A stretch of 39,526 nucleotides of DNA, from the NCBI GenBank assembly GCA_009841475.1, contig VXLT01000256.1:1-39526 (forward strand), read 5' to 3'. Positions 8,878-22,257 of this stretch are shown piece after piece. Every line of letters starts with the position of its first letter. Position 1 is the stretch's first letter. The notes below the pieces were generated by a model. That model was not told where the DNA came from and searched no databases. It saw only the letters and a program-made list of their open reading frames with translations. Source of the stretch: Gemmatimonadota bacterium. Its GTDB lineage: Bacteria > Gemmatimonadota > Gemmatimonadetes > Longimicrobiales > Gaopeijiaceae. The position numbers and the translations under genes are program-made.

Positions 8878-8998
8878 ACCGCCACCAAGTGTTTGCTGCC
8901 GTCAACTGGATGGGCTACCTTGGTCGTCAACCTCGCGCCCCCGCGGCTTGGCGATTCAGCCCTCGCTTGTCCTTTATCGAACTTGAAGGGTCGTGCTC

Positions 8999-11422
8999 AT
9001 GCATTCAAAATGTCAAGAGAACATTACTAAATGTCATGTTTTCTTTACATTGATCGCTTCGCTCACCACCATCGCCCCGCCCCTGTACGCGCAGGACCCT
9101 CCCCCTCCGGATCCCGACAGCCTCGTAGTGCTGGAATCCATCGTGGTCACCGCTAGGAACCGGGCGGAAGCCCTGCAGGATGTCCCCATCGCCATGTCGG
9201 CGCTTTCGGGCAGGGAGCTCCGGCTTCAGCAGGTCGAAGCGACTGATCAGCTCTCCTACGCGACTCCAAACCTCAGCTTCAATTCATCCGGAGCGTTCGT
9301 CGGCGCCAAGTCGGCATCGCAAGTCTTCATTCGGGGCGTGGGACAGACCGACTACATTCCTACGACCGACCCGGGAGTCGCTGTCTACCTGGACGGCATC
9401 TACATGGCTCGGTCGGTCGGCCCGCTCATGCATCTTCTTGACATTGCACGCGTCGAGGTGCTGCGCGGGCCTCAGGGCACGCTCTTCGGACGAAACGCGA
9501 TGGGGGGTGCGGTGTCCGTGTACTCGAGACGGCCCGGCGAGGAGGCGCGCGGCAGTATCCGCCAGCGGCTCGGCATCAACGGTATGATTTACACGACCGC
9601 CGCGGGGAGTGGCCGGATCACGGAGGGTCTGTACGGAGGCGCTGCGATTTCCTACCGCCACCGGGACGGCCACGTCACCCGCGTCCACGATGGACTCGAC
9701 ATGGGCGACGACAACGCGCAGGCGGCCCGGGGATCCCTCGTGTGGCGGCCCTCGGACGACATTGAGCTGTTTGTCACGGCGGACTACTCCCGCCTCCGGG
9801 AAAACGGAGCGCCAACCGTCTCCGGGGGCGTCAACGACCGTCAGGCCTTCGCTACCTTCGGCAATGCCCTCCTGCCGGAATGCGAGGCGGTCAGGATAAA
9901 CCCCAACTTTCCCCGCGCAGGTCCGCCGACGTTCCCGCCCCCAGGGACCGCTACCGGCGGCGGCGCAGGCTGCTATGGGCCGGACAGCTTTGCGGGCGAA
10001 TACGAATCGGAGGGCACGTTTCCCGCCTTCGAAGACCTCGACTCCTGGGGAAGCAGCGCCGAGCTGTCCTGGTCGCTGGGAGACTGGGGGACGCTGACGT
10101 CGCTCACCGGTTACCGCGGGTTCAGCCTGAGGACCTCGCGCGACGCGGACAACACCCCGGCCAACATGGTGAGCAACCAGCAGGACTGGGACCACGAGCA
10201 GTTCACCCAGGAACTGCAAATCGGCGGACTGGCCGCAGGACGGCGACTACACTGGCAGACCGGCCTCTACCTGTTCCGTGAATCCGGATACGAAGTCGGC
10301 CACGTGCTCATTCCCGTCGGAGCGTCGATAATCGGACGCGACTACGATAACCGGTCGGTGGCGGGGTTCGGCCAGGTTACAGCCGATGTGACGGACCGGG
10401 TGTCGCTGACTGCTGGCGGGCGGTACACCCTGGACCGGAAGGGCCTGAACCCCGACATGTACGCCGTTGGCGACGCCTCGCAGAGCAGGGGCAGCATCTT
10501 CGGTCCCACTTGGCCGTTGCTTGAAGGGATATTCAGCTCGCCAGGGGGTCCGATGCGCCCGGGAGACCGGATGCTTCCGCGCAGGGATTTCACCGAGAAC
10601 TTCAGTTCGCTCACGGTAACGGCAACGGCGGCGTACCATTTCACGCCCGCTACGATGGGCTACGCCGGATACTCCGAAGGGTTCAAGAGCGGCGGGTTCA
10701 ACGGGCGCTTTCCGGCACCGCCGCCGGGCCACGAACCGAATTCCCCGACCGCGGCCCCCGACACCTATGAGCCGGAGGCGGTTTCCAGCTACGAGTTGGG
10801 ATTCAAGTCGATTCTGGCCCAGGGCAGACTGCTGTTCAACGTGGCGCTGTTCCGGGCCACCTACGACGAGATGCATATCATCGTACGTGAGACGTTCATC
10901 CCGAAGACGTTCAACGGAGGGACCGCCAACATCTCCGGCGCGGAGGTGGAGACCGCATGGGTGCCCGGCGGCGGCTGGAGCCTTCGGGCGAATCTGGGTA
11001 CGGTCCGGGCCGCGTACGACGAGCTCAGCGAGAGCGTTCTGGACAATTCGACCCCGATCCTCCCCGATTACCGGCTCGCCAAGACGCCGGATCTCAACTA
11101 CTCCGTCAGTGTGTCCAAGGTGGTAGCCGCAGCACGTGGCGTGGTGCTCACGCCACGGATCAACTGGTCGTTCACGGGGTCACAGTACCACGACGCGACC
11201 AACTCGTCGCATCTGTTGCAGGACGGCTATCACCTGGCGAATGCGGCATTGCGGGCCCGGATCGGTGACGGGCGCTGGCAGGTGGAGTGGGCGGCCCGCA
11301 ACCTGATGGACGAACGCTACCTCGTAACCGGAAACTCTTCGTTCAATACGGGAGCGTCCTACGTGGAGCTGGTCTACGGGCGACCGCGGGAATGGTCCGT
11401 ATCGGTAGAATACAGTTGGTGA
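8999..11422 (+). CDS. TonB-dependent outer-membrane receptor A
   Basis: The protein has 807 residues from this start. A signal peptide (FFTLIASLTTIAPPLYAQ) is followed by a TonB-box-like ESIVVTARNR, a plug domain (QVFIRGVGQTDYIPTTDPGVAVYLDG, VEVLRGPQGTLFGRNAMGGAV) and a beta-barrel ending in the aromatic residue of VEYSW. It would take up a siderophore, vitamin, glycan or peptide with energy from TonB-ExbBD; the substrate is unknown. The track begins at GTG 8993; I prefer ATG 8999 because an AAGGG site lies 8 nt upstream. The first ~60 coding bases carry paired 18-bp dyads also present upstream of receptor B, so regulation may overlap the start. A DUF1330 gene follows after 37 nt. Confidence 0.93.
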   Translation: MHSKCQENITKCHVFFTLIASLTTIAPPLYAQDPPPPDPDSLVVLESIVVTARNRAEALQDVPIAMSALSGRELRLQQVEATDQLSYATPNLSFNSSGAFVGAKSASQVFIRGVGQTDYIPTTDPGVAVYLDGIYMARSVGPLMHLLDIARVEVLRGPQGTLFGRNAMGGAVSVYSRRPGEEARGSIRQRLGINGMIYTTAAGSGRITEGLYGGAAISYRHRDGHVTRVHDGLDMGDDNAQAARGSLVWRPSDDIELFVTADYSRLRENGAPTVSGGVNDRQAFATFGNALLPECEAVRINPNFPRAGPPTFPPPGTATGGGAGCYGPDSFAGEYESEGTFPAFEDLDSWGSSAELSWSLGDWGTLTSLTGYRGFSLRTSRDADNTPANMVSNQQDWDHEQFTQELQIGGLAAGRRLHWQTGLYLFRESGYEVGHVLIPVGASIIGRDYDNRSVAGFGQVTADVTDRVSLTAGGRYTLDRKGLNPDMYAVGDASQSRGSIFGPTWPLLEGIFSSPGGPMRPGDRMLPRRDFTENFSSLTVTATAAYHFTPATMGYAGYSEGFKSGGFNGRFPAPPPGHEPNSPTAAPDTYEPEAVSSYELGFKSILAQGRLLFNVALFRATYDEMHIIVRETFIPKTFNGGTANISGAEVETAWVPGGGWSLRANLGTVRAAYDELSESVLDNSTPILPDYRLAKTPDLNYSVSVSKVVAAARGVVLTPRINWSFTGSQYHDATNSSHLLQDGYHLANAALRARIGDGRWQVEWAARNLMDERYLVTGNSSFNTGASYVELVYGRPREWSVSVEYSW
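9011..9049 (+). promoter_or_regulatory. Tandem 18-bp dyads spaced 21 bp, locus 1 (start of receptor A)
   Basis: TGTCAAGAGAACATTACT (9011-9028) and TGTCATGTTTTCTTTACA (9032-9049) start exactly 21 bp apart and fit an imperfect dyad TGTnAnG-N4-CnTnACA. The same pair, same order and same spacing, occurs upstream of receptor B, and a third pair lies at 17913-17951. Two helical turns of spacing would suit cooperative binding of two regulator dimers. Here the sites lie in the signal-peptide codons. This is a pattern-based prediction. Confidence 0.45.
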
Positions 11423-11778: not shown

Positions 11779-11848
11779 GCGTGGGCACCGCTGTCCAGCC
11801 CGGATGCATCGCCGCTCGAATGCCGGGGGGATTTTGTCCACGGGCTGC
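11779..11848 (+). repeat. 70-bp dispersed repeat, copy b
   Basis: This segment matches 22004-22073 in the same orientation at 65 of 70 positions with no gaps, including CTCGAATGCCGGGGGGA and TTTGTCCACGGGCTGC. It ends directly at the stop codon of the DctM gene (11849), between convergent DUF1330 and DctM genes. Read on the minus strand it could encode a short peptide (PPAFERRCIRAG), but the two copies differ in coding context, so I treat it as a noncoding mobile or REP-like repeat. Confidence 0.75.
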
Positions 11849-17912: not shown

Positions 17913-17951
17913 TGTAAACTCGACTTGGCAGAATGTAAGGTTCAGCTTACA
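17913..17951 (+). promoter_or_regulatory. Tandem 18-bp dyads spaced 21 bp, locus 3 (convergent spacer)
   Basis: TGTAAACTCGACTTGGCA (17913-17930) and TGTAAGGTTCAGCTTACA (17934-17951) start 21 bp apart, as at the two TonB-receptor loci. The second is a clean dyad: with flanks, AATGTAAG and CTTACATT pair around a 6-nt spacer. It covers the stop codon of the TlpA-like gene (17942-17944) and sits between convergent genes. In RNA the same sequence would form a hairpin for either transcript, so a bidirectional terminator is an alternative, though no U-run follows. Confidence 0.4.
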
Positions 17952-19183
17952 TTCGGTGGATCGGCCTCGGGTTTGGTCATGGGGATGACCTCGGGTCCGG
18001 GCGTGAACCCGTCCTCCCCCAGCAACTCCACCCGTGCCTCTTCGTCGGCCCCCGTTGCCTGCAGGATCACGTCGTAGAGCGATTCCACGCTGTGCGACCT
18101 GCCGCGCACCACCCCGTCGCGATCCACCGCGATGTAGGTGGGCACGCCCTGTATCGACCAGTCGTCGTACAGCTTGGACCGCTCCCCGACAAACCAGTTG
18201 ACGTAGGGCAGATCCATGCGCTCCTCCATGAACGCGTCAACCAGCTCCACGTTTTCGTCGATGCTGATCGTGATGACCTTGAAGTCCCGGTCTGCGAGCA
18301 GCTCCTGGAGCTTTTCGATCTCCGGCAGGCTCGCGATGCAGGGCGCGCACCAGGTCGCCCAGAAATCGAGGAGCAGCACGTTGCCGTGGTAATCGCTCAG
18401 CGACTCCTGGCCGCCGCCGACGCGGAGCGCAGTGGCCTCGGGGAGAACCGCGCCTACGGTCACGTTCTCGAGTGCGTACAGCACGGGCTGGATCGCCTCA
18501 CCGCCCGGCTCACCCCGAAAGACCTCCACGTCGCTGTATTCGTCGACCACCAGCTGTGCCATGCGGGTGACCTCCTCCCGTACTCGCGCGCGCTCGTCGG
18601 GGGTGGACCGGAGGTTGTCGACATCCATCAAACGTTCCGTGGCGGACCAGAAGGCGCCCCGGGCGCGAAGCACGCGGTGATCGCTGTTGGCGACGACGTT
18701 GTCGACCAGATCCACGCCGCGCTCCCCGCCGAAGCGGATCAACCCCAGGAGCATCCGATTGAGCCGCAGGTCGTCGATGTAGTGCGCCTCGAGAAGTTCA
18801 TGGACGGTGTCCTCGTACTGCTGGCGCTCGGCAGCGTCGACTGAGCGCAGCTCGTAGAAAGCGAAGTGCAGCGCCAGGAAGCCCAGGTCGTCCGCAGGAT
18901 TCGCCCTGGCGATCCGCATCGCCGCCTCCATGGCCGGGCCAGGGTCCAGTTCGCGCAATCCCAGCGCCGCCTCGGCTTCCGCCATCGACCTGCCCTCGTT
19001 GCCCGGCTGTCTCATCCACTCCCCGGCACGCAGCCGGTTCATCCGCTGGTCGATCTTGTAGCTCTCGATCGTCTGCCAGGCCTCGATCCGCTCGGGGCCT
19101 CCGTCGCTCCCCGAATCGGCTCCCGGACCCGTGCATCCACCAACCAGCAACAGGACGAGCAGTATTGTTGTGCTTTTCTTCAC
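17942..19183 (-). CDS. TlpA-like thioredoxin-fold lipoprotein
   Basis: 413 residues. The N-terminus MKKSTTILLVLLLVGGC has lipobox VGGC, so it is an exported lipoprotein. A long helical region of ~230 residues (AEAALGLRELDPGPAMEAAMRIA...) precedes a thioredoxin-like domain with FWATWCAPC at about residues 275-283 and cis-proline motif GVPTYIAVD. It would act as a periplasmic thiol-disulfide reductase like TlpA/ResA. The start codon is GTG at 19183, with GGAG ten bases upstream. It lies 21 nt after TonB receptor B on the same strand and is probably cotranscribed. A dyad covers its stop codon. Confidence 0.9.
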   Translation of the reverse strand: MKKSTTILLVLLLVGGCTGPGADSGSDGGPERIEAWQTIESYKIDQRMNRLRAGEWMRQPGNEGRSMAEAEAALGLRELDPGPAMEAAMRIARANPADDLGFLALHFAFYELRSVDAAERQQYEDTVHELLEAHYIDDLRLNRMLLGLIRFGGERGVDLVDNVVANSDHRVLRARGAFWSATERLMDVDNLRSTPDERARVREEVTRMAQLVVDEYSDVEVFRGEPGGEAIQPVLYALENVTVGAVLPEATALRVGGGQESLSDYHGNVLLLDFWATWCAPCIASLPEIEKLQELLADRDFKVITISIDENVELVDAFMEERMDLPYVNWFVGERSKLYDDWSIQGVPTYIAVDRDGVVRGRSHSVESLYDVILQATGADEEARVELLGEDGFTPGPEVIPMTKPEADPPNVS

Positions 19184-19204: not shown

Positions 19205-21814
19205 TCAGAACCACGAAACGGTTACGGTCGTCGAAATCGTCCGGGGTGCCCCGAGCCAGGCCGCATTCTCCGTGATCGCCGACAGGTAGGACCGGTCGAA
19301 CAGGTTGTTCGCCACGATCGCGAACTCGATCGACTTGAGCCGGTCACTCAAATCTTCTCCAGTCAGATTGACGTACGCGTCCACGAGCCAGTAGGCGTCG
19401 GTGTCCCAGTCCGCTGCCAGGCTGACGCGGCGAGACGAGGTGTACTTGGCGGACACCCCCGCGCCGAAGGGCCCGGTGCGGTCGAGCGAGAGCACCCACA
19501 GGCGGGGCGGCACCCCGGTAATGTCGGTCCCCGGCACGATGCCCTGGCTCGCGTCAACCAGCCGGTCACCGCTCCCGATGTACTCGGAGTCGTTCAACGT
19601 GAGGGCGCTGTAGAACGAGGTCTCACCCGGCATCCGCACCGTGGTGGACAACTCGACACCGCTGGTCGCGATACCGCCCGCGTTGAAGTAGGCGCCGCCC
19701 CCGGGGATGAGGTAGTTGGGCCCGGTGGGTGTCTGCGGACCGATGTAGAAGATCCGGTTCTCGAAATCGATGGTATACCAGGTGGCGCTGAGCGCAAAAC
19801 GCTCCGTCGCGTACTGCAGTCCGACATCGATATTCGACGCGGTCTCGGGCTTCAGCGTCTCCAGACTGCGGCCCGGCACCTCGAGCAGCGTGCTGCTGAT
19901 CGCCTTGAAGTTCTCGGAGTAGCCCGCAAACACGTCGAGACCGGCAACCGGCGTCTCGTACGTCACGCCGCCGGAGAAGAGCAGCTTCGAATCAGAGTCG
20001 ATCCCGAGCGCCTCGCTGACCTCGAACTGGTCCTCGCGCGACACACCGACCAGGTACTGTTTGACTCCGGCGGTCAGCGCGAGTGACCCGGCGTAGAAGG
20101 TCTCCTCCACGTACCACTTGAACACGTCCTGCGGGAAGTCCCACTCGTACTGGTGCCAGTAGGCCTGCTCGTCCCACTTGAAGCTGAGCTCCGGATCCAG
20201 CATCCGGTGCCAGTCACGACCCAGGTCGCGCCGCGAGTCCTCGTACCAGATGCCGGCGCGGGTCGTGGTGCCACCCCAGCCGGTTTCGGCGGACCACTCA
20301 CCGTCCAGGGTGATGCCCAAGCGGTCCTTCCCGTAGTGGCTGTGGCGGTAGGACTGCACCGCCGTGGCCCCCGGGTGGCACGCCGGATCGACCTCCGGGC
20401 CGCCCGCGCCATAGTAGTTGAAGATGTACGAAGACTCGCATCCGGGCGTAGGACCGACCGCGACGCCATTACCGTCCACGAAGCGGATTACACCCCGCTG
20501 CGAACCGCCCCGCACCGGCGGCAGGCCCGCCAGCTCCGACTCCGGTCCGCCCGCGTCGTCGACCACGTCCACAATGTACGGCGGCAACCAGTCCCCACGG
20601 CCCCGGTTGCGATGGTAGTACGCCCCGGCGGTCACCGTCCTGAGTTCGTCGTACGACCAGTCGGCCTTGAGGTAGGCAAGCGTGTTGGTGCGCCGCGTCT
20701 GCCACCCTGGCCGGTAGAACTGGTTCAGGTACGGAACGCCGGGCCAATCGCCGACCAGCCGGTCCCAACGCGGGTTCGCCCTGAAATCGGCCTCGCTGTA
20801 GATCCGCTGGTAGGTATCCTCGTGGATGTCGTCGATCGAGAGGTAGCCCGTCAGGTCGACGGGCCCGTGCGACGACACAACCTTGGCGGCGAGGTGCTCC
20901 CGCTCGTTCCTGGCCGAGCCCTGTACCCAGTCGGTCGCCTCCTGCCGCACCGCGGCCACCCACGCCCGCGTCCTGCCGTCGAAGATCGATCCCGTCTCGA
21001 CCCGCGCGGCAAAGCGCTGGCCTTCGTTCTCGCCGAAACTGGCCGATGCGGTATAGCTCCGCTCCACCGCCGGCGCGTCCGTCAGGTAGTTGAAGGTGCC
21101 GCCCAGCGCCTCGACCGACCGCGACGCAATATCGGCCGTGCCCTGCGACACCTCGACACCGCCGAGGTTCATCGGGTCGACGAGCCGGTTCGCCTTCGCC
21201 CCGCTCCAGTAGTCCGAAGTGCCGTTCGGAAAGCCGTCGATGGTGGTGCCAACCTGCGCGTCGTTGATGGTGACCTGGAATCCGCGCATCACCACGTTGC
21301 TCGACCAGTCGTCGAACCCGTAGGCGTCCCCCTCCTGGACGGACACGCCGGGAAGGTTGTCCACGACGGCCGTCACGCCGGTGATGCTCGACTGCTGTCG
21401 CATCATCGGCTCCGCGACGAAGTTGAGCGCGAAGACCCGCGGTGCCTCGGGGATCACGACGATCGGATCGAGACGCCAGACGACGTCAAGAACGATCCGT
21501 ATTGTCTCGACGGCGCCCGCCTCGACGGAAACCGGGTGCTCCGCGGGCGCGAAACCCGCAAGACTGGCGGTTATGAGATAGTCGCCGGCGGCCAGATCGG
21601 TAAATCCGTATGACCCAAGGGGGCCCGTGATCACTCCCCGGCGCACTCCGGAACCGGTCAGCGTCACCGTGACACCGGGCAAGGGAGTGCCGCTGCCGTC
21701 CACGACCCCGCCCGTTACCGCTCCGGTTGTCTGGGCGGTCGAGGGCGGTGCGGCAATGAGCGACAGGAGCAAGGCGGGGATGGCGAGGCGCGCGACGCCG
21801 TGAGCGTGCTTCAT
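19205..21814 (-). CDS. TonB-dependent outer-membrane receptor B with carboxypeptidase-regulatory-like N-domain
   Basis: 869 residues. A signal peptide (MKHAHGVARLAIPALLLSLIAAPPSTAQ) precedes a carboxypeptidase-regulatory-like beta-sandwich (GTPLPGVTVTLTGSG, LPGVTV type) at about residues 30-110. Then come a plug (VVDNLPGVSVQEGD, NVVMRGFQVTINDAQVGTTIDG) and a barrel ending in VTVSWF. I chose ATG 21814 for its signal peptide and the GGGAG six bases upstream; the 84 extra residues in the track are repeat-derived. It is the third gene of a minus-strand series: beta-propeller, TPR-redoxin, receptor B, TlpA-like. The upstream 443 nt holds two repeat elements and a dyad pair. Substrate unknown; a peptide- or glycan-like ligand is possible. 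Confidence 0.93.
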   Translation of the reverse strand: MKHAHGVARLAIPALLLSLIAAPPSTAQTTGAVTGGVVDGSGTPLPGVTVTLTGSGVRRGVITGPLGSYGFTDLAAGDYLITASLAGFAPAEHPVSVEAGAVETIRIVLDVVWRLDPIVVIPEAPRVFALNFVAEPMMRQQSSITGVTAVVDNLPGVSVQEGDAYGFDDWSSNVVMRGFQVTINDAQVGTTIDGFPNGTSDYWSGAKANRLVDPMNLGGVEVSQGTADIASRSVEALGGTFNYLTDAPAVERSYTASASFGENEGQRFAARVETGSIFDGRTRAWVAAVRQEATDWVQGSARNEREHLAAKVVSSHGPVDLTGYLSIDDIHEDTYQRIYSEADFRANPRWDRLVGDWPGVPYLNQFYRPGWQTRRTNTLAYLKADWSYDELRTVTAGAYYHRNRGRGDWLPPYIVDVVDDAGGPESELAGLPPVRGGSQRGVIRFVDGNGVAVGPTPGCESSYIFNYYGAGGPEVDPACHPGATAVQSYRHSHYGKDRLGITLDGEWSAETGWGGTTTRAGIWYEDSRRDLGRDWHRMLDPELSFKWDEQAYWHQYEWDFPQDVFKWYVEETFYAGSLALTAGVKQYLVGVSREDQFEVSEALGIDSDSKLLFSGGVTYETPVAGLDVFAGYSENFKAISSTLLEVPGRSLETLKPETASNIDVGLQYATERFALSATWYTIDFENRIFYIGPQTPTGPNYLIPGGGAYFNAGGIATSGVELSTTVRMPGETSFYSALTLNDSEYIGSGDRLVDASQGIVPGTDITGVPPRLWVLSLDRTGPFGAGVSAKYTSSRRVSLAADWDTDAYWLVDAYVNLTGEDLSDRLKSIEFAIVANNLFDRSYLSAITENAAWLGAPRTISTTVTVSWF

Positions 21815-21829
21815 GGGAGACTCCCTGCA

Positions 21830-21950
21830 GTCCGTGGATGAATCCGCCCGAGCACCGAGTGCGGCGAGGCGCCGGGCTGGCAAGGCGCGACGAAGGGCGC
21901 ATAGCGGAGCTATTCGTCCGAGGAGCAACGCAGAGCGGTGCTTCAACGAA
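21830..21950 (-). repeat. REP-like palindromic element in the leader of receptor B (includes 63-bp element copy a)
   Basis: 21830-21892 is the best match to the 63-bp leader element near the Hsp70-like gene. The gene-proximal 18-mer GCGGATTCATCCACGGAC is identical in both. A CGGCG-AGG-CGCCG hairpin lies inside it. The following sequence contains a second hairpin, ATAGC-GGA-GCTAT (about 21901-21913), flanked by GGCAAGGCGCGACGA and AGGAGCAACGCAGAG. That layout resembles the extragenic palindromic repeats found in many bacterial genomes. Confidence 0.6.
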
Positions 21951-21956
21951 GCTGAA

Positions 21957-21995
21957 AGTGAAATTAACATGACAACATGTAAAGTTCTCTTGACA
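21957..21995 (-). promoter_or_regulatory. Tandem 18-bp dyads spaced 21 bp, locus 2 (upstream of receptor B)
   Basis: On the minus strand TGTCAAGAGAACTTTACA (21995-21978) is followed, 21 bp later, by TGTCATGTTAATTTCACT (21974-21957). The first is a near-perfect TGTnAAG-N4-CTTnACA dyad. The pair is strongly similar to 9011-9049, and similarity extends upstream through GTGCTCAyGC. It lies about 145-180 nt before the receptor B start, where an operator would be plausible. Confidence 0.5.
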
Positions 21996-22003
21996 TTCCG
22001 AGC

Positions 22004-22073
22004 GCGTGAGCACCGCGGTCCAGCGCGGATGCATCGCCTCTCGAATGCCGGGGGGACTTTGTCCACGGGCTGC
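22004..22073 (+). repeat. 70-bp dispersed repeat, copy a
   Basis: It is identical to 11779-11848 at 65 of 70 positions without gaps. Here it is immediately adjacent to the dyad pair of receptor B and about 190 nt upstream of the receptor gene, while copy b abuts the end of DctM. Two copies at this identity in otherwise unrelated spacers point to a dispersed element and not a conserved gene part. Confidence 0.75.
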
Positions 22074-22257
22074 TCGGCCAGGGGTTGCCTCCTGCCAAGC
22101 TAGCCGGCAGCCGCTGCATCCGCACGGCGCCGCGGTAGAGCGTGGTGGGATGAAGCGTGACCGTGGGAGAGGTCCGGAGCGCCGTTGGTCAGGAAGCGCT
22201 GGCTGAAGGCGCGCCCGCCGGATCAGGGCCGCTTCATGAAGGCGCCCCACACGTGCA
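22074..22257. other. Spacer between receptor B leader elements and the TPR-redoxin gene; nothing recognised
   Basis: This is the remaining part of the 443-nt gene-free region 21815-22257. It is GC-rich; short ORFs on both strands show no recognisable protein pattern. I see no convincing promoter, terminator or RNA gene here. Confidence 0.4.

Follow-up and report, generated by a model that had tools for sequence, protein, structure and literature searches.

A dispersed 39-bp dyad in sponge-associated Gemmatimonadota, probable operator of an XRE-family regulator

The DNA analyzed here, a stretch of 39,526 nucleotides from a Gemmatimonadota bacterium (the window), contains three copies of a 39-bp dyad that is very likely the operator of one XRE-family regulator. 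This regulator combines an HTH_3 with a PBP_like domain, and its gene adjoins modA/modB. The core sequence and the constraint on it, its distribution, its carriage by MITEs, its co-occurrence with the regulator gene, and a site upstream of this gene in 22 of 22 genomes are established here.

Sequence and distribution of the core

The three copies and the genes that they touch or precede are as follows.
9011..9049, plus strand: 39-bp core, core-only class, within the putative signal-peptide coding start of a TonB receptor gene
8993..11422, plus strand: TonB-dependent receptor gene whose 5′ end holds the first core (PF00593, PF07715), reading from ATG 8999 or GTG 8993
17913..17951, plus strand: 39-bp core of the core-only class where two genes converge, overlapping the stop codon of the TlpA-like gene
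17942..19183, minus strand: redoxin gene (TlpA/AhpC-TSA-like), overlapped at its 3′ end by the second core (PF08534, PF00578)
21957..21995, minus strand: 39-bp core in a MITE copy
19205..21814, minus strand: TonB-dependent receptor gene of the CarboxypepD_reg type, preceded by the MITE-borne core (PF00593, PF13620, PF07715)

The initial annotation had described paired 18-bp dyads with starts 21 bp apart at three loci, namely at 9011/9032 and 17913/17934 on the plus strand and at 21995/21974 on the minus strand (block 21957–21995). Two pairs were placed at the 5′ ends of TonB receptors and one at the end of a TlpA-like gene. Positions, settings, and the spacing at all three loci are correct. 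All three sites represent a single 39-bp dyad, TGTMA-N8-TKACA-N3-TGTMA-N8-TKACA, with TGTMA half-sites at core positions 1–5 and 22–26, TKACA half-sites at 14–18 and 35–39, and A/T-rich edges (a preceding AA and a following TT). Three matches to the pair pattern exist in the 39.5-kb window, against 0 in 100 Markov-1 simulations.

The unit is four half-sites in a fixed register rather than two independent boxes. No 18-bp dyad in the window stands alone, and of the 177 exact 18-mers in 674 kb of site-bearing loci, 176 are accompanied by another one at a distance of 21 bp, where about zero would be expected by chance. Single 18-mers as half-formed sites were rejected, as just one partnerless 18-mer occurs in these 674 kb. 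An alignment of 64 distinct sites from the own genome (G000) gives the core an information content of ∼49 bits, which is far beyond the need for specifying about 100 sites. The half-site positions are mostly 80 to 100% conserved in this alignment, and positions 8 to 10 are nearly free. When all arm pairings were tested against shuffles, no compensatory change was found, and in the first 18-mer the innermost positions pair more rarely than shuffled ones (z about −3). The lack of covariation between the arms marks the core as a DNA site and not an RNA hairpin; its pattern of conservation looks like that of a site for a multimeric protein. A “structured element,” which had been offered as one explanation of the pairs, is thus unsupported.

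A genome-wide scan, as the initial annotation had proposed, was carried out with up to one mismatch on the own genome (4.18 Mb, 369 contigs). It returned 79 forward and 80 reverse matches, with 0 for a reversed-pattern control. The assemblies are fragmented MAGs, and the individually inspected sites are part of the own-genome total. When 40 relatives were searched, 21 of the 22 from the same genus gave 23 to 251 forward matches, and G008 gave zero; over the full genus set, the core is present in 22 of 23 genomes. Matches number 0 to 1 per genome in the family's other genus and in 16 genomes of the same order. Among 84,980 species, the strict pattern was found in 66 stretches, all from Gemmatimonadota MAGs except for one Zixibacteria contig; the complete chromosome OX639991.1, titled Longimicrobiales, is among the strict matches. 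The genus bearing the core is a sponge-associated one of the Gemmatimonadota, with ∼25 to 250 sites per genome. G008 is its first branch in a tree of RplQ and TruA (support 0.85), and the multiplication of the core is for this reason most likely dated after the split of G008.

Two observations on single genomes may be added. G010 is the smallest genus genome among those searched (2.8 Mb) and has the most sites (251 forward matches). In the outgroup genomes G024 (C10, L088/L363) and G038 (C184, L089/L419), the sole core-like site lies upstream of a gene for a small membrane protein, which is followed by a short XRE gene; these are probably ordinary local XRE operators.

Genomic setting, age, and mobility of the sites

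With few exceptions, the sites lie between genes or touch gene ends. Some cores contribute a TAA stop codon (via TGTAA), and some contain an ATG. The genes at the sites, which were called with a simple codon-usage caller and, beyond Pfam matches, named by eye from sequence, are a mixed set that includes gyrA, tsf, pyrF, murB, degP, etfB, beta-propellers, TonB receptors, and others. Beta-propellers make up 6 and TonB receptors 2 of the 53 own-genome genes scanned. Clustering upstream of TonB receptors is therefore unsupported as a rule, as both of these downstream genes lie in the window and the targets are mixed. The TonB link is incidental, and at 21957 it exists because a MITE inserted in front of that receptor gene. 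Gene orientation at the sites is tandem in 86, convergent in 26, and divergent in 19 cases, without bias relative to background gaps (132, 49, and 53, respectively; p = 0.13). The lack of a shared function near the sites, together with the background-like orientation, makes most of them unlike ordinary promoter operators. Genes starting within 35 bp of a site are not significantly enriched for exported proteins in a crude test (19 of 36 versus a 39% background, p = 0.16). Where the core overlaps the start codon, 12 of 15 genes encode exported proteins (p = 0.002 in a crude, post hoc test), and the site at 9011 is an example.

The core-only sites appear to be old and kept at orthologous places. 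The truA–degP junction was read in 17 genus genomes, of which 15 have a recognizable core (with two mismatches in G004); it is not recognizable in G001 and absent in G008. Nearly all sequence of this junction has turned over except for the half-sites. The second example lies inside the coding sequence of an AMP-ligase gene, where the genus orthologs read have a core with two to four mismatches. The length of the protein is constant relative to an outgroup without the core, and most orthologs use a TTA codon in it although the genome is 67% GC. In the window, site 17913 and its flanks are conserved in G011 (L338). The orthologs of the gene at 9011 in G002 and G004 are ∼90% identical downstream and have another gene start without a core. 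A simple insertion of the 39-bp core was rejected, since the AMP-ligase has the same length as in the outgroup and no target duplication is found at the core; a clean 39-bp insertion at 9011 was likewise rejected because the gene start differs from its orthologs by more than that. As a local peculiarity, L259 (G014) has a tandem duplication that places half a core immediately ahead of the intact one at truA–degP.

The remaining sites are associated with a mobile repeat, which is represented twice in the window.
21827..22074, minus strand: MITE-like repeat of 248 bp, bounded by terminal inverted repeats CAGYCCGTGGAYAAA... and inserted ahead of the TonB receptor gene 19205–21814
11779..11848, plus strand: solo MITE left arm of ∼70 bp without a core, 93% identical to 22004–22073

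Many matches per genome are bounded at the coordinates 21827 and 22074, and a family alignment further supports the repeat. The repeat has the properties of a MITE, with a short non-coding body of ∼250 bp, CAGYCCGTGGAYAAA termini, a target duplication (CTAG flanks either end of the element at L196 in G000 and of copy L347 in G008, though not clearly so for the window copy), and empty sites. The MITE of the window is absent at the orthologous place in G005 (L337), and the rpoA–rplQ gap measures ∼26 to 30 bp in most genus genomes read as opposed to 201 bp in G000 and 274 bp in G011, where the insertions have opposite orientations and each contains a core. The solo arm sits between the first TonB receptor and TRAP transporter genes; the corresponding place in G004 (L335) has a shorter match to it. 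Of 157 sites scored, about a quarter have one or both MITE arms and ∼75% have none.

MITEs can also be found without the core, namely in G008 (L347) and, as MITE-like elements, in two other genera of the order (L348, L350). The core-bearing segment was therefore probably added later to an older, core-less MITE. The three core-less elements (G008:C20, G031:C117, and G028:C90, respectively) have a common hairpin AATAGC...GCTATT and inverted-repeat ends, and two of them adjoin CTAG. They constitute an order-wide MITE family, which is probably old. At truA–degP in G002 (L262) and G015 (L265), a MITE left arm abuts the degP core exactly, with native sequence on the right; these joins suggest recombination at cores or the loss of one arm.

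The candidate regulator

A search through the gene neighbors of the first 64 own sites, and through those of sites in relatives, yielded no regulator; the regulator locus of the own genome has a two-mismatch site, which lay beyond the first pattern search. In viral contigs, the same pattern immediately precedes XRE (HTH_3) genes in two phage groups that are unrelated to each other, one with Bacillus-type control regions (seven contigs) and a second one (three contigs). Downstream of the Zixibacteria match, an XRE gene begins after 3 bp. These sites at XRE genes led to a scan of six genomes for HTH_3, in which an XRE-PBP_like fusion with the core directly upstream was found in all four core-bearing genomes. 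The core-bearing genomes have 13 to 26 HTH_3 genes versus 5 in G008 and 3 in G024, and one shorter XRE in G010 also has a core nearby. The regulator gene of the own genome lies outside the window.
G000:C112:14544-15647: XRE-PBP_like regulator gene, ∼370 aa, HTH_3 + PBP_like

The Pfam domains of the protein are HTH_3 and PBP_like (PF12727, 6.9e-43), and the solved structures closest to it in sequence are those of small XRE regulators, for example, CylR2 and HipB(Lp). The gene is present in 22 of 22 site-bearing genus genomes and absent in G008; outgroup homologs are distant (at best 36–39% over the whole length) and occur in some genomes only. In all 22 genomes, a core with up to two mismatches lies upstream of the regulator gene, mostly 32 to 67 bp from the ATG. 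Site and XRE gene are thus linked as in an XRE operator, and both occur together in 22 of 22 genomes and are both lacking in G008. As G008 is one basal lineage, the match of presence and absence counts as a single evolutionary event. The “specific regulator” that was initially proposed for the pairs is well supported, on the one hand, by position-specific conservation in arms that do not covary and, on the other hand, by the XRE gene with its upstream site and by the same 18-3-18 layout at XRE genes of phages and others.

Downstream of the regulator gene follow modA (TIGR01256, above cut-off) and a modB-like permease gene (fragment). The regulator would accordingly be of a molybdate type, a label that rests on the molybdate-binding-type sensor domain and on the linkage to mod genes. 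In G010 the PBP_like domain is truncated, although this genome has the most sites, which, like the excess of information in the core, counts against the proposed reading.

The regulator’s own operator reads as if overlaid by promoter-like sequence. Half-site 1 is often TGACA (CTGACA/TTGACA, towards a −35 element), and in one clade half-site 3 is changed to TATAAT/TATGAT/TATAAG; the −35-like and −10-like hexamers (TATAAT/TGTAAT) are 16 bp apart. The recognition helices at independent XRE loci are alike (VSRQAIHAIE versus TTRQTIHKIE). Within the genus, one clade has the helix sequence SRQAIH (or SRQAVH), whereas SRQAIL is found in most others, and half-site position 7 is a C in 27% of the half-sites in SRQAIH genomes versus 57% in SRQAIL genomes (p about 3e-7; outer halves of two genomes of each kind, with half-sites treated as independent). 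This shift of helix and base is consistent with co-evolution but short of proof, as it involves two clades and is confounded with phylogeny.

Proposed mechanism, alternatives, and known systems

In the proposed mechanism, one dimer would bind each 18-bp dyad (TGTMA-N8-TKACA), and two dimers, which lie 21 bp apart on one face of the helix, would bind cooperatively as a tetramer. The PBP_like domain may sense a small molecule, perhaps molybdate or tungstate, that alters DNA binding. At the regulator’s own gene, where the operator lies over promoter-like sequence, binding would repress the regulator-modAB genes. Following the split of G008, the operator would have multiplied, with old core-only copies surviving in orthologous positions between genes and at gene starts, and a MITE of ∼250 bp would have captured a core-bearing segment and would spread further copies. 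The dispersed sites are presumed to have some effect, be it as regulation, decoy, or roadblock. Tentatively, a local autoregulatory operator could have turned into a genome-wide, partly mobile element whose copies wire or titrate one molybdate-type XRE regulator, making it a young global regulator with a regulon built by transposition; we regard this as possible, though somewhat doubtful. If true, tens to hundreds of loci in one genus are affected, including the start codons of exported proteins.

A different protein (another XRE, a BlaI-, PadR-, or Fur-type regulator, or a nucleoid protein) might bind the core, with the XRE-PBP_like gene being a member of the regulon. The larger number of HTH_3 genes in core-bearing genomes speaks for it. 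However, among the XRE loci read, it is the XRE-PBP_like gene that has a core directly upstream in four of four core-bearing genomes, and the core at this gene in 22 of 22 genomes with a matching pattern of presence and absence renders another binder unlikely. ArgR and HTH_3 were the families scanned for; TyrR, BlaI, PadR, and Fur were weighed by motif resemblance only. Pairs of ARG boxes, the 18-bp boxes of ArgR, are 3 bp apart and have the same 18-3-18 geometry as the core, but ArgR (PF01316) is absent in G010 with its 251 sites and present in G008 with 0 sites. ArgR was rejected as the binder on this inverse distribution, and its probability is next to nil. Only slightly better placed is an RNA element such as a hairpin, terminator, or attenuator, which the palindromic core, its frequent position near stop codons, and its occasional one between convergent genes would suit; a hairpin or REP element was rejected because the stem lacks compensatory changes and the center of the first 18-mer pairs less than shuffled sequence, and a role as RNA is highly improbable.

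The sites could also be a mere mobile repeat (MITE- or REP-like) without a regulatory role, whose conservation stems from recent copying. The quarter of sites in MITE copies or half-copies, the recent insertions at rpoA–rplQ and 21957, and the scatter of the remaining sites without a functional theme fit this reading. It is nevertheless quite unlikely, as conservation is position-specific instead of uniform, three quarters of the sites have no MITE arms, and G008 has MITEs yet no core. Moreover, the truA–degP core is kept amid turnover of the surrounding sequence, and the AMP-ligase core within coding sequence of constant length and with its TTA codon. Sites that are dispersed, orientation-independent, and palindromic, some of them with a single MITE arm joined to the core, might alternatively organize the chromosome or serve site-specific recombination. 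The 49 sites on OX639991.1 do not cluster significantly (largest gap p = 0.13), however, and the core has no target duplication, so that we consider such a role very unlikely. The GC skew of this chromosome, taken in 20 samples, was too noisy for placing ori and ter.

If the core is taken as the operator of the XRE-PBP_like regulator, genome comparison connects an anonymous repeat with one specific regulator. A natural series is available in 23 related genomes whose operators number from 0 to about 250, and both states of the MITE, the core-less ancestral and the core-bearing derived one, are on record. It thereby becomes testable whether a transposon builds a bacterial regulon or rather scatters decoys or architectural anchors, which is a long-standing question. 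The regulator/operator pair with its visible drift in specificity is also useful for mapping XRE recognition. A literature search of partial coverage found no account of this repeat or of an XRE-PBP_like molybdate regulator.

XRE/Cro-CI systems, and HipB in particular, resemble the core and its candidate regulator in the 5-8-5 dyad, the HTH_3-type domain, the repeated operators, and autoregulation. HipB binds the operator TATCC-N8-GGATA and does so cooperatively at several sites (PMC3376134). O1 and O2 of HipB are 28 bp apart from start to start in the oligonucleotide used (PMC3376134), whereas the core pairs are exactly 21 bp apart. HipB-type systems further have few operators instead of tens to hundreds per genome, and HipB has a toxin partner in place of which the candidate regulator has a PBP_like sensor domain. 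The likeness to ModE and other molybdate/tungstate regulators is found in the predicted oxyanion-binding-type domain and in the gene position beside modA/modB. ModE itself consists of a LysR-type HTH with TOBE domains; the candidate regulator differs by its XRE HTH with a PBP_like domain.

Among mobile repeats, Correia elements are MITEs that carry an IHF site (reviewed in PMC10969869). Like the core-bearing MITE, they are short and non-autonomous, have terminal inverted repeats, and bring a binding site to many loci. The MITE described here differs in carrying what appears to be the operator of a dedicated single-gene regulator and in that the core joined an older core-less element. Rickettsia palindromic elements are palindromic repeats that lie in frame inside coding sequences (PMC10969869), and the core likewise occurs in frame in coding sequence, its 39 bp being equal to 13 codons. 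Unlike these elements, the core in the AMP-ligase adds no length relative to the outgroup and is conserved position by position, like a binding site.

The layout of the core is also seen in the phage XRE regions (L156, L157, L164, L168, L170, L173, and L195, and likewise L158, L161, and L189) and in the Zixibacteria region (L117), all of which have a TGTMA-N8-TKACA pair with a 3-bp gap by an XRE gene. In several of them the recognition helix is similar to that of the candidate regulator. These operators are local with no dispersal seen, whereas the core of the genus is dispersed. Other viral matches look like chance or coding repeats. The GC-rich viral contigs L169, L182, and L186 contain TGTCA...TGACA arrays with a 21-bp period in or near coding sequence, which are probably unrelated repeats.
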